A program made the translations under genes and the position numbers. The notes beneath the pieces were generated by a model that made no database searches, had not been told where the DNA came from, and saw nothing but the letters and a program-made list of their open reading frames with translations. From Thermosipho melanesiensis BI429 (GTDB lineage Bacteria > Thermotogota > Thermotogae > Thermotogales > Fervidobacteriaceae): a stretch of 64,000 nucleotides of DNA. The stretch spans positions 1,302,001 to 1,366,000 of the forward strand of contig NC_009616.1 in NCBI RefSeq assembly GCF_000016905.1, given 5' to 3'. Positions 41,725 through 44,813 of the stretch are shown here, piece after piece. How positions within the stretch are numbered: position 1 is the first letter of the stretch; the number at the start of each line of letters is the position of its first letter.

Positions 41725-43050
41725 GTGTTTGATACAATAGCAGCGGTTTCATCTCCTCATGGAACAGGTGCAATTGCGGTTATTAGAATAGATGGGCCAA
41801 AAAGTCATGATATAGCGAAAAAGTTAACAGGGTTAAATAAGGTAGAGTATCGTAGAGTGTATACTACATATTTGAATTTTGAAGGAGATATTTTAGATCA
41901 GGTTAATATAGTTTTTTTTAAATCGCCAAATAGCTATACAGGTAATGATTTAATTGAAATATACACACACGGTGGTATTTTAGTAACACAAAATGTTCTT
42001 GATGCAATTCTAAAGAGTGGGGCTAGAATAGCAAAAAGAGGAGAATTTACCAAAAGAGGATTTCTTAATGGGAAAATTTCACTTGTGCAAGCAGAAGCTA
42101 TTTACCAAATTATAGAGGCAAAGAGTGAAGTATCTTTGAAAATGTCATTACAAAATTTGAAGGGAAAATTAGGTGAAGAAATAGAGTATTATCGCGGAGA
42201 GATATTAAACGTATTGTCGGAAATAGAAGTAACATTTGATTATCCGGATGATATAGAATTAGATGAAAAAAGCATATTGAATCTGCTTTCAAAGTTAAAA
42301 GATGAGGTAGGTAGAAAGATTGAAGATAGTAAAAAATCCATAATGCTAAATAATGGAATTGTTATGACAATTGTTGGAAAACCTAATTCCGGAAAGTCAA
42401 CACTTTTAAACAGACTTCTTTTGGAAGATAGAGCAATTGTAACTGATATACCAGGAACAACACGGGATGTGATAAAAGGTGAAATAGAAATTAATGGTAT
42501 TAGATTTGTAATTGTGGATACCGCTGGAATCAGAGAAACAAAAGATGTAGTAGAAAAAATTGGTATAGAACGGAGTTTAAAAGAAATACAAAAGGCGGAT
42601 GTAATTCTTTTTGTTTTAGATGCAACTACTGGTTTTACAAAAGAAGATAAGCTAATTTTGAGGAAAATTGAAGGTGGAAATTATATACCTGTGTGGAATA
42701 AATGTGATGAAGGAAATAATTTTAATAAGATATTTGATGGTGAAATAAAAATTAGTGCTCTTAATGGAGAAGGTTTAAAGAATTTAGAGAATAAAATAGT
42801 ATCTAAGGTTAAAAATATTATAGAAAGCGGAACGGCTTCTCACGTTATAACCCAGAGACAGGTTGAAATATTGGAAAGGGTATATACTCATCTGGAAAGT
42901 GCGGTAAATAACTTAAATATGGGATATGAAATAGATTTAATATCTATTGATTTGAGGAGAGCACTTGAAGAGTTAGATATGCTAATTGGAAGAAAATTTT
43001 CCGATGATCTTTTGGATAACATATTTTCAAACTTCTGTGTTGGAAAATAA
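41725..43050 (+). CDS. mnmE: tRNA uridine-modification GTPase MnmE
   Basis: MnmE works with MnmG to install the carboxymethylaminomethyl group at U34 of certain tRNAs. The N-terminal folate-binding domain (IAAVSSPHGTGAIAVIRIDG) leads into a helical domain and a G domain at about 210-370 with G1 GKPNSGKST, G2 IPGTTRD, G3 DTAGIRET and an unusual G4 WNKCD (NKCD). The C-terminal FCVGK matches the family FCIGK tail that contacts the substrate. The 441-aa length is normal. The start is GTG with GGGAGG upstream. Confidence 0.96.
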   Translation: MFDTIAAVSSPHGTGAIAVIRIDGPKSHDIAKKLTGLNKVEYRRVYTTYLNFEGDILDQVNIVFFKSPNSYTGNDLIEIYTHGGILVTQNVLDAILKSGARIAKRGEFTKRGFLNGKISLVQAEAIYQIIEAKSEVSLKMSLQNLKGKLGEEIEYYRGEILNVLSEIEVTFDYPDDIELDEKSILNLLSKLKDEVGRKIEDSKKSIMLNNGIVMTIVGKPNSGKSTLLNRLLLEDRAIVTDIPGTTRDVIKGEIEINGIRFVIVDTAGIRETKDVVEKIGIERSLKEIQKADVILFVLDATTGFTKEDKLILRKIEGGNYIPVWNKCDEGNNFNKIFDGEIKISALNGEGLKNLENKIVSKVKNIIESGTASHVITQRQVEILERVYTHLESAVNNLNMGYEIDLISIDLRRALEELDMLIGRKFSDDLLDNIFSNFCVGK

Positions 43051-43119
43051 AAAAATACGGGCCTTTTTTTGGCCCGCTCAAAGTTGTGGGGGGTGTATCT
43101 CAAGGGGGATAGGGGGGTT
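43049..43119 (-). ncRNA. Candidate C-rich small RNA (~70 nt)
   Basis: On the minus strand a promoter-like pair (43126-43154) is followed about seven bases later by a short region with three cytosine runs: C6 (43112-43117), C5 (43104-43108) and C6 (43088-43093). The region has no obvious strong pairing partners and no reading frame. It ends in a CGGGCC/GGCCCG hairpin with A7 loop (43058-43076) and a U7 tract (43049-43055). Unpaired C-rich motifs plus an intrinsic terminator are hallmarks of sRNAs that pair with G-rich Shine-Dalgarno sequences, as known for RsaE-type RNAs in Firmicutes. It could instead be the 3' end of the AIM24-family mRNA. Ends are inferred. Confidence 0.5.
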
Positions 43120-43125
43120 TCTCTA

Positions 43126-43154
43126 ATTAAAATGATACATTGTTTATGTTACAA
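43126..43154 (-). promoter_or_regulatory. Probable promoter of the small-RNA candidate
   Basis: On the minus strand, TTGTAA (43149-43154) and TTTAAT (43126-43131) have a 17-base spacer. They lie within a 253-base gene-free stretch whose remaining part (43155-43303) shows only A+T-rich sequence and nothing else I can name. Confidence 0.45.
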
Positions 43155-43303
43155 AGTTAGGCAAACCGAAGTTTCTATTACGAACCATTTGTGTTAATAA
43201 TTAATTACAAGTAGCGTTTTTAATAATATATAAATGACTTTCCCTTATCTTTACACCTATTTTGACTTAATGTCTACAAATTTAGTTCATAAATAATAAG
43301 AAA

Positions 43304-43978
43304 TTATCTACTTCCAGTGTCTTTTGGTGATAAGCTTTTTATCCATTTTATATACTCAGGGTAATTTCTCGTTTGAATATATATTTTTCCAGGACCGATG
43401 AAATCTACTACTAATCCTTCTCCACCGAAAATGGTAGATTTAAATCCGCCAAAAGTTCTAACTGAATAATTCACTGATTCGTCAAATGCCACTACATGAC
43501 CTGTGTCTATTGTTATTTTTTCATCTTCTTTTAGCTCTAAACTAAATATTGCTCCAAAGGATGAAATAGCGAGTTTTCCATATCCAGAAAGTTTAAGCAA
43601 GAAAAAGCCTTCCCCTGAGAAAAACGATTTAAATCCGGTAAATTTTGTGTCTAAATTTATACCTTCTTCTGATGCAAGAAAAGAAGTTGATTGCAAATAT
43701 ACTGTTCCATTTAAATCTATTATATCGATATCACCGGGTAATTTTGGGGCAAAAGATATTCTACTTTTATTTTTTGCTTTATATTTATTTAAAAATATGT
43801 GTTCACCACCTAGAAATGCTCGCTTTAAGGCTTTGAATACTCCCCCAGTAGAGGTTTCGATTTCTAAATCTCCTGACATTGTAACCATTGCGCCAGGTTC
43901 ACCTATTATAATTTCTCCGGGTTCAAGATCTACAAAGAGTATTGAGTAGGAACCTTTGAAATTAACGTTAAAATTCAT
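43304..43978 (-). CDS. AIM24/TIGR00266 family protein
   Basis: The 224-aa beta-rich protein has the family's glycine-rich strand-turn pattern: EPGEIIIGEPGAMVTMSGDL near residue 17, LNKYKAKNKSRISFAPKLPG, GFKSFFSGEGFFLLKLSG at about 113-130 and a late YSVRTFGGFKSTIFGGEGL. The family forms a trimeric double-stranded beta-helix-like fold and is linked to mitochondrial biogenesis in yeast (Aim24); bacterial function is unknown. The gene stands alone on this strand. Confidence 0.85.
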   Translation of the reverse strand: MNFNVNFKGSYSILFVDLEPGEIIIGEPGAMVTMSGDLEIETSTGGVFKALKRAFLGGEHIFLNKYKAKNKSRISFAPKLPGDIDIIDLNGTVYLQSTSFLASEEGINLDTKFTGFKSFFSGEGFFLLKLSGYGKLAISSFGAIFSLELKEDEKITIDTGHVVAFDESVNYSVRTFGGFKSTIFGGEGLVVDFIGPGKIYIQTRNYPEYIKWIKSLSPKDTGSR

Positions 43979-44039
43979 GTTAACCCTCCTTTAATCCAGA
44001 ATTAAATAAATTGTGGTAATATCTAAATGAGGTGATAAT

Positions 44040-44813
44040 TTGAAAAAACTTATTTTCATATTAATAATTATATCATTTTTAATTTTTGACTTTTGGATTA
44101 TTTATTCGGAATTTGATTATATTTCTTTTTTTAAAGAAGTGTCTCTTAGTTTTGAAAGTTGGAAGGATTTAAAGGCATTTTTTGATGAGATCGGGTATGA
44201 TTCACTGAAAAATCCTCCAAAGGTTTATGTTACTTCCTTTCCTAAGGATCTCAAAGATGCTCCTGTAGATATTAGAAAAGAACTTTTTGTTAAGATAATG
44301 ATACCTATAATTAGAAAGGTTAACGAAGAAATACTTAGAGAGAGAAAAGAAATTATTACTGCTATGGAAAAAGGTGATACTTTAACATTGAAAAAGTATT
44401 ACAAGAAATATAATGCAAAATCAAACGAAGAATTACTTTTAAAAGTAGATGCTATTCCAGAAGATATTGCTATTGCGCAAGCGGCTATTGAGTCGGCATG
44501 GGGGACTAGTAAATTTGTCGTTATTGCTAATAATATATTTGGCGAATGGACTTATGAACCTGGTACTGGAATAATACCAGATGAAAGACCAGACGGCGAG
44601 ATATATGAAATAGAATATTTTAAAAATTTAGAAGATTCTGTGAGAAGTTATGCGATGAATTTAAATAAATTGCCATATTATGAAAAATTTCGTCTTATTA
44701 GAGCTGGTATTGAAAAAGGCCATCCTGCAGATGGCCTGGTGTATTATTCACAAATGAGAGAAAAGTATGTGGAAATAGTAAAAAATGTTATTAAACATCT
44801 TCCTGATTTATAG
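44040..44813 (+). CDS. Bax-like glucosaminidase-domain membrane protein
   Basis: After an N-terminal membrane anchor or signal (residues about 2-22) and a helical region, residues about 140-250 show the glucosaminidase fold of Bax/FlgJ-type peptidoglycan hydrolases: IAQAAIESAWGTSKFVVIANNIFG, whose core AAIESAWGTS contains the catalytic Glu, then GIIPDERPDGEIYEIEYF and DSVRSYAMNLNKLPYYEKFR. The start is TTG with GAGGTGAT upstream. The end overlaps the convergent UDP-sugar dehydrogenase by six bases. The role is probably cell-wall turnover. Confidence 0.87.
   Translation: MKKLIFILIIISFLIFDFWIIYSEFDYISFFKEVSLSFESWKDLKAFFDEIGYDSLKNPPKVYVTSFPKDLKDAPVDIRKELFVKIMIPIIRKVNEEILRERKEIITAMEKGDTLTLKKYYKKYNAKSNEELLLKVDAIPEDIAIAQAAIESAWGTSKFVVIANNIFGEWTYEPGTGIIPDERPDGEIYEIEYFKNLEDSVRSYAMNLNKLPYYEKFRLIRAGIEKGHPADGLVYYSQMREKYVEIVKNVIKHLPDL

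Follow-up and report, generated by a model that had tools for sequence, protein, structure and literature searches.

Organisation of the locus

The convergent genes mnmE (41725-43050, plus strand) and an AIM24-family gene (43304-43978, minus strand) enclose a short region that we examined within a stretch of 64,000 nucleotides, referred to here as the window. On the minus strand, this region carries a predicted small RNA (Table 1). The C-runs of 6, 5 and 6 residues, the G+C-rich stem-loop and the U7 tract all lie where the first-pass annotation had placed them. The terminator, made up of a stem-loop (43077-43057) and a T7 tract (43055-43049), is the one match returned by a terminator scan of 42500-44200, in which 0.6 were expected, and the core pattern at ≤3 mismatches likewise has a single match in the window (0 expected). 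Folding of a 73-nt segment gave -14.7 kcal/mol (z = -2.97), nearly all of it supplied by the terminator. C-runs 1 and 3 are unpaired in the predicted fold and C-run 2 falls mostly in the loop of a small hairpin which, with 4 base pairs, is unlikely to be stable at growth temperature.

Table 1. Predicted features of the small RNA locus, in window positions
Feature	Position	Strand	Basis
GTAAC, phylum-conserved promoter element (T/G)TAAC upstream of the -10	43148..43152	-	42/53 distinct upstream sequences
TATCAT, predicted -10 box	43132..43137	-	Aligned position across loci
Predicted small RNA, ~77 nt	43049..43125	-	Comparative -10 position, terminator, conservation; 5′ end inferred
Invariant 30-nt core CCCCTATCCCCCTTGAGATACACCCCCCAC	43086..43115	-	No differences among the 29 aligned loci of the order
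C-run 1 (C6)	43112..43117	-	Sequence; most relatives 5 or 6 C, few 4
Small hairpin UAUC[CCCCUUGA]GAUA	43096..43111	-	Fold; pairing preserved despite stem changes in diverged copies
C-run 2 (C5), mostly inside the loop of the small hairpin	43104..43108	-	Sequence, fold
C-run 3 (C6); with following ACA/ACG, best-supported target-pairing segment	43088..43093	-	Target-side evidence
Intrinsic terminator GCGGGCC-A7-GGCCCGT, A, T7	43049..43077	-	Terminator scan, fold

Among 53 distinct upstream sequences, 42 have the motif (T/G)TAAC with a -10-like hexamer 9-13 nt downstream; letter shuffling leaves a mean of 1.6. At this locus, the positions of GTAAC and TATCAT therefore predict a transcription start near 43125-43123, in place of the 5′ end at 43119 given by the first-pass annotation. 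The promoter proposed there, TTGTAA-17-TTTAAT, is present as letters (43154-43149 and 43131-43126) but its assignment as -35 and -10 is doubtful: it was absent from a consensus promoter scan, TTGTAA overlaps the conserved (T/G)TAAC and TTTAAT sits directly after the likelier -10. Comparison favours GTAAC with TATCAT, and the -10 box is probably the latter hexamer rather than TTTAAT. A Rex-type operator in the promoter was considered and not established.

Conservation across the Thermotogota

A 161-nt query was searched against the own genome and 40 relatives. Of these 41 genomes, 37 gave a match at E ≤ 1e-10, and G023, G038, G039 and G040 did not; outside the nearest genera, the match is mostly limited to the C-rich core and the terminator. 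Alignment of 29 of 30 loci (A1; L009 was excluded, lying at a contig end), drawn from three families of one order, revealed 30 consecutive invariant columns, with variable columns upstream. At the level of the phylum, the core was found at ≤3 mismatches in 42 of 103 genomes and the reversed pattern in 0, and a covariance model, which has 4 base pairs and rough E-values, detected the RNA in 63 of 103 at E ≤ 1e-4 and in 96 of 103 at E ≤ 1, chance matches included. A scan of named genome contigs returned 12 stretches, all from Thermotogota (Thermosipho, Fervidobacterium, Pseudothermotoga, Thermotoga and unassigned Thermotogota MAGs).

The pattern CCCC(C)-UAUC-CCCC persists in diverged copies from other families, with altered spacers and quite different terminator stems; the stem sequence varies between families while a stem and T-run are retained, and diverged copies in other orders carry unrelated terminator stems. 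Some genomes of another family have a second, more diverged copy. The small hairpin recurs with changed stems (UUAUUC/GGAUAA, CUAUC/GAUAG and, in the second copy, CUAUUC/GAAUAG), which were compared by eye, without covariation statistics, because automatic alignment misplaces insertions. A coding reading of the core is disfavoured by changes in C-run length and by in-frame stops in the diverged copies. Genome searches, alignment and covariance model thus bear out the expectation that both C-runs and terminator would be conserved in Thermotogota relatives. For a trans-acting sRNA, near-invariance within an order, with copies recognisable throughout a phylum of thermophiles, would in our judgement be unusually deep.

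In some genomes of another family, an RNA-like copy (L117, L119) lies just upstream of a gene pair, one for a Rho_N-like small protein (below threshold) and the other similar to the branching-enzyme gene of G000; a similar pair in the own genome (345452, 346240) has G5-G6 ribosome sites.

Genomic context

In the neighbour comparison (INDEPENDENCE), 18 of the first 30 loci adjoin mnmE, all within the own family. Different genes flank the RNA in the other families, and an AIM24-family gene is near just 8 of the 55 loci compared. In one Fervidobacterium genome (G016), core and terminator are set apart by an insertion of approximately 1 kb. Since the RNA persists where its neighbours differ, and given this insertion, it is not the tail of an upstream mRNA; rather, the element is a predicted free-standing small-RNA gene of about 77 nt. 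The G016 insert itself (C1 ~1943442-1944595, L046) has inverted-repeat-like ends and a repeated GCTTTATG, like an insertion element.

G-rich ribosome sites as candidate targets

A first-pass target search covered 864 kb of the own genome (45%) and 400 kb from each of two relatives, using crude gene calling. G5 or longer runs precede 79 of 792, 43 of 355 and 43 of 347 starts in these three genera (10-12%), far above background. As a class, these G-run ribosome sites are conserved between genera no better than a GGAGG control (similar odds). The subtype GGGGGGAT was rejected as a special target class, as GGAGGG followed by AT shows largely the same (22/36 vs 38/93) and ribosome pairing geometry accounts for most of it. 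A GGGGG site alone therefore defines no target.

Ranking and shuffle tests used an ungapped pairing score, which is cruder than duplex energy. In the own genome, this ranking brought up long complementary stretches at purH (15 nt, counting wobble pairs) and at a Xan_ur_permease-family gene (14 nt), presumably AzgA-like and referred to below as the permease, together with long matches at other genes. A genome-wide pairing excess over spacer shuffles was not upheld as a general property (34, 3 and 112 of 1000 shuffles as good in the own, Fervidobacterium and Thermotoga-type genomes, respectively), and a reversed core did no worse than the natural core when applied to the own genome. Among ortholog pairs, the five best shared sites of Thermosipho and Fervidobacterium, which include rnfE- and glpK-like genes, beat 499 of 500 spacer-shuffled RNAs; Fervidobacterium-Thermotoga pairs were intermediate, with 22 of 500 shuffles as good, and Thermosipho-Thermotoga pairs had no pairing excess (250 of 500).

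Several genes for the catabolism of ornithine and other amino acids have G5-G6 ribosome sites (L123-L142 and the window), NCBIfam searches having covered 40 of 45 G5 genes. A regulon of amino-acid and ornithine catabolism, suggested by the first 400 kb and the window, was set aside when the next 400 kb, inspected by eye, gave no obvious repeat. For a protein family without a Pfam hit (L137:9634-10233, L383 and the G005 ortholog), members from Thermosipho, Fervidobacterium and a Thermotoga-type genome all have G6 at the ribosome site.

Complementary sites at nucleotide genes in Fervidobacterium

The 9-mer CGTGGGGGG, complementary to CCCCCCACG of the RNA (C-run 3 plus ACG), is common to purH, guaA and the permease in Fervidobacterium. 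It occurs 53 times in six Fervidobacterium genomes, compared with 6 occurrences of the reversed pattern. The RNA locus accounts for 6 of the matches, 32 are located just upstream of an open frame, at ribosome sites, and 15 lie elsewhere; by eye, the last group comprises recurring coding motifs (11) and CRISPR-like repeats (4, at L325, L331, L337 and L371). The ribosome-site matches are at purF (5), guaA (5), purH (4), the permease (6), pyrB (6) and purK (1), the remainder being at a small ORF with weak similarity to sigma-70 region 2 (3) and an ECF sigma factor (2). Nucleotide synthesis and nucleobase uptake genes hence make up 27 of the 32 matches and 6 of the 8 families, one member of each family having been named by a tool and the rest by alike N-termini. 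A rough hypergeometric estimate for 27 of 32 is 2e-9, on the assumption of 40 such genes in 1900, both figures being assumed. At purK and at two of the small ORFs the match extends to 18 nt (GCATAAAGCCGTGGGGGG), reaching into the terminator base. The two sigma-factor-like genes with CGTGGGGGG at the ribosome site, one of them only weakly sigma-like, are found at L323, L369, L340, L350 and L373.

The Thermosipho version, TGTGGGGGG, shows no genome-wide enrichment over control in Thermosipho; among its matches, of which 30 of 35 were read and named by eye, are pyrB (two genomes) and, in one further genome, guaA and a purB-like gene. The matches to CGTGGGGGG read in Pseudothermotoga- and Thermotoga-type relatives (30 of 65) are mostly unrelated. 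Complementary ribosome sites at a coherent gene set are found in the Fervidobacterium group and not in the Pseudothermotoga and Thermotoga groups. In three Pseudothermotoga-type genomes (L380, L390 and L392, family f2), a LacI-family gene has GCCGTGGGGGG near its start and is a candidate target; the longest version, AAAGCCGTGGGGGG, is complementary over 14 nt.

Shuffle tests on orthologs

We collected orthologs of rnfE, guaA, purH and the permease from throughout the order. When one Thermosipho-type core was applied to every locus, purH outscored every one of 500 shuffles, the permease 498 of them, guaA 437 and rnfE 351. The test was repeated with lineage-specific cores on the start regions of 22 rnfE, 30 guaA, 27 purH, 30 permease, 30 purF and 26 pyrB genes (Table 2). 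These came from the best 30 of 39 guaA, 30 of 37 purH, 30 of 35 permease, 30 of 35 purF and 27 of 27 pyrB loci and, for rnfE, from the 22 closest orthologs, many paralogous matches being excluded; loci with no usable start were dropped for all genes. Group names were assigned from the genera seen in the scan of named contigs.

Table 2. Shuffled RNAs scoring as well as the natural, lineage-specific core, out of 1000 (raw counts, uncorrected for multiple tests)
Group	guaA	purH	Permease	purF	pyrB	rnfE
Fervidobacterium	2	2	24	15	20	453
Thermosipho	70	2	1	282	377	204
Pseudothermotoga	794	811	205	87	180	177
Thermotoga	322	66	77	10	75	

In the Fervidobacterium group, the way in which guaA, purH and the permease came to be selected has no bearing on their tests, and the tests of purF and pyrB are circular because both genes were found through CGTGGGGGG there. 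The purH and permease tests in the Thermosipho group are partly circular since these genes were picked in the own genome, and guaA, purF and pyrB are not significant in that group. None of the 8 tests on guaA, purH, the permease and pyrB in the Pseudothermotoga and Thermotoga groups reached 5%, with the RNA itself kept; purF in the Thermotoga group, with 10 shuffles as good, counts in favour of pairing. As a conserved target, rnfE failed in all three groups tested.

The paired segment of the RNA differs between genera. For the permease, pairing is with UCCCCCUUGAGAUA in Thermosipho and with CCCCCCACG in Fervidobacterium, and for purH it is with UUGAGAUACACCCCC and UACACCCCCCACG, respectively; one gene being matched to different segments by genus, a shared cis motif would not explain the complementarity. 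The base just after C-run 3 also differs between groups (CACA or CACG), and the targets mirror this difference, with TGT/CGT counts before the G-run of 3/0 versus 6/35 (Fisher p = 0.006, the orthologs not being independent). For 11 chosen sites, the duplexes predicted at 70 °C with the RNA range from -12.3 to -20.0 kcal/mol, and those of the 16S anti-Shine-Dalgarno sequence with the same sites from -4.3 to -8.3 kcal/mol. At a consensus GGAGGTG site this order is reversed (RNA -3.0 versus anti-Shine-Dalgarno -8.8 kcal/mol, 70 °C). The first-pass proposal that the C-runs pair with G-rich ribosome sites is thereby supported from the target side in Fervidobacteriaceae, with the qualification that a GGGGG site does not by itself make a target.

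Proposed mechanism and alternative explanations

We propose that the RNA would be transcribed from its own promoter and end at its intrinsic terminator, and that its largely single-stranded C-rich core would pair with G-rich ribosome-binding sites, the predicted targets in Fervidobacteriaceae being the purF, purH, guaA, pyrB, purK and permease mRNAs. Pairing would cover the Shine-Dalgarno sequence, so that ribosome binding should be blocked. What the analysis shows is conservation, the anatomy of the gene, complementarity and enrichment of targets; we infer expression, repression as the sign of regulation and the controlling signal; if it is a repressor, the RNA might be expected to be abundant when purines are plentiful. 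A phylum-wide trans-acting sRNA, with a C-rich core that pairs with G-rich ribosome sites, nucleotide synthesis and uptake mRNAs as its best-supported targets in Fervidobacteriaceae and translational repression as the outcome, is the reading to which we give a probability of roughly 0.7. In this respect, the trans-acting translational regulator of the first-pass annotation gains computational support from conservation, independence from the AIM24 mRNA and target complementarity in Fervidobacteriaceae.

The position between convergent mnmE and AIM24-family genes could suggest that there is no RNA gene here, only the 3′ end of the AIM24-family mRNA, an alternative raised in the first pass, or a bare convergent terminator. 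We consider this scarcely credible, as the core is invariant in genomes with other neighbours and has its own conserved promoter element. Rho and KH-domain proteins prefer C-rich RNA, and an unstructured C-rich RNA of fixed sequence might act as a sponge for such a C-binding protein, the G-rich sites being unrelated. This seems improbable: C-richness alone needs no invariant spacer UUGAGAUACA, and functionally coherent genes carry target sequences complementary to the RNA of their own lineage. It is less probable still that CGTGGGGGG is a separate cis motif of nucleotide genes, a protein or DNA site complementary to the RNA by coincidence. That it recurs at a constant position ahead of several genes would fit, but Thermosipho purH and permease carry different sequences, whose pairing partners lie elsewhere in the RNA, and the matches at purK and the small ORF extend up to 18 nt, into the terminator base.

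The likeliest rival concerns the width of the regulon. A conserved sRNA might block many G5-G6 ribosome sites broadly, acting in central metabolism or redox in the manner of RsaE/RoxS, with the nucleotide genes as the subset of one lineage. The frequency of G5 or longer runs at starts in three genera, the long own-genome matches at other genes and the Thermosipho-Fervidobacterium ortholog pairs, rnfE- and glpK-like genes among them, all point this way; against it stand the failure of the rnfE orthologs, the lack of any excess in Thermosipho-Thermotoga pairs and the near-equivalence of GGGGGGAT and GGAGGG followed by AT. We put the chance of such a broad regulator a little below even. That one ancient RNA, nearly invariant in the Thermotogota, regulates nucleotide synthesis and uptake at the level of translation in Fervidobacteriaceae, its targets having switched the paired segment between genera while the RNA stayed fixed, is in our estimation somewhat likelier to be true than false.

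Comparison with known systems

No Rfam family matched the RNA at gathering threshold. The suhB/mmgR RNAs, an alphaproteobacterial family, are C-rich with a terminator, and suhB/mmgR (RF00519) was the best sub-threshold match at 19.3 bits (E 0.064), far below the gathering score of 41, which leaves the RNA outside that family. RsaE was not among the sub-threshold Rfam matches, which likewise places the RNA outside the RsaE/RoxS family by sequence. Three features of C-rich anti-Shine-Dalgarno trans-acting sRNAs are nevertheless present: unpaired, conserved C-rich motifs, according to fold and alignment, an intergenic location with a predicted promoter and intrinsic terminator of its own and, in the Fervidobacterium group, complementary ribosome sites at a coherent gene set. 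We judge the predicted RNA to be RsaE/RoxS-like in function though outside that family by sequence; its conservation is unusually deep and its predicted regulon is new. Among staphylococcal C-rich sRNAs, IsrR belongs to the iron-starvation response.

In Staphylococcus and Bacillus, unpaired C-rich motifs of RsaE/RoxS pair with G-rich ribosome sites and lower translation, with metabolic targets (PMC6435200, PMC5419742), and binding of staphylococcal RsaE over the Shine-Dalgarno sequence keeps the ribosome off (PMC6435200). The Thermosipho RNA resembles these in being C-rich, largely unpaired and predicted to pair with G-rich ribosome sites of metabolic genes; it differs in belonging to another phylum, in the three C-runs of its 30-nt core, in its predicted nucleotide-gene targets and in having no shown Rex site. 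IsrR and other staphylococcal C-rich sRNAs are likewise reported to act on Shine-Dalgarno sites (PMC11448259).

Very few small RNAs are annotated in Thermotogota. A review lists one for Thermotogae (PMC9029176), and the literature searched yielded no description of the present RNA, which may be among the 13 putative ncRNAs of T. maritima (PMC3636130). The predicted targets offer a testable account of nucleotide-synthesis regulation. Elsewhere, purine synthesis and uptake genes are controlled by PurR repressors and the purine riboswitch (PMC4052901, PMC3766115), and E. coli PurR orthologs are reported from three bacterial orders only, Enterobacteriales, Pasteurellales and Vibrionales (PMC4052901). 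Those regulators are proteins or cis-acting RNAs, whereas the Thermosipho RNA is predicted to act in trans. If our reading is true, this RNA would fill in Fervidobacteriaceae the role taken elsewhere by PurR proteins or purine riboswitches.
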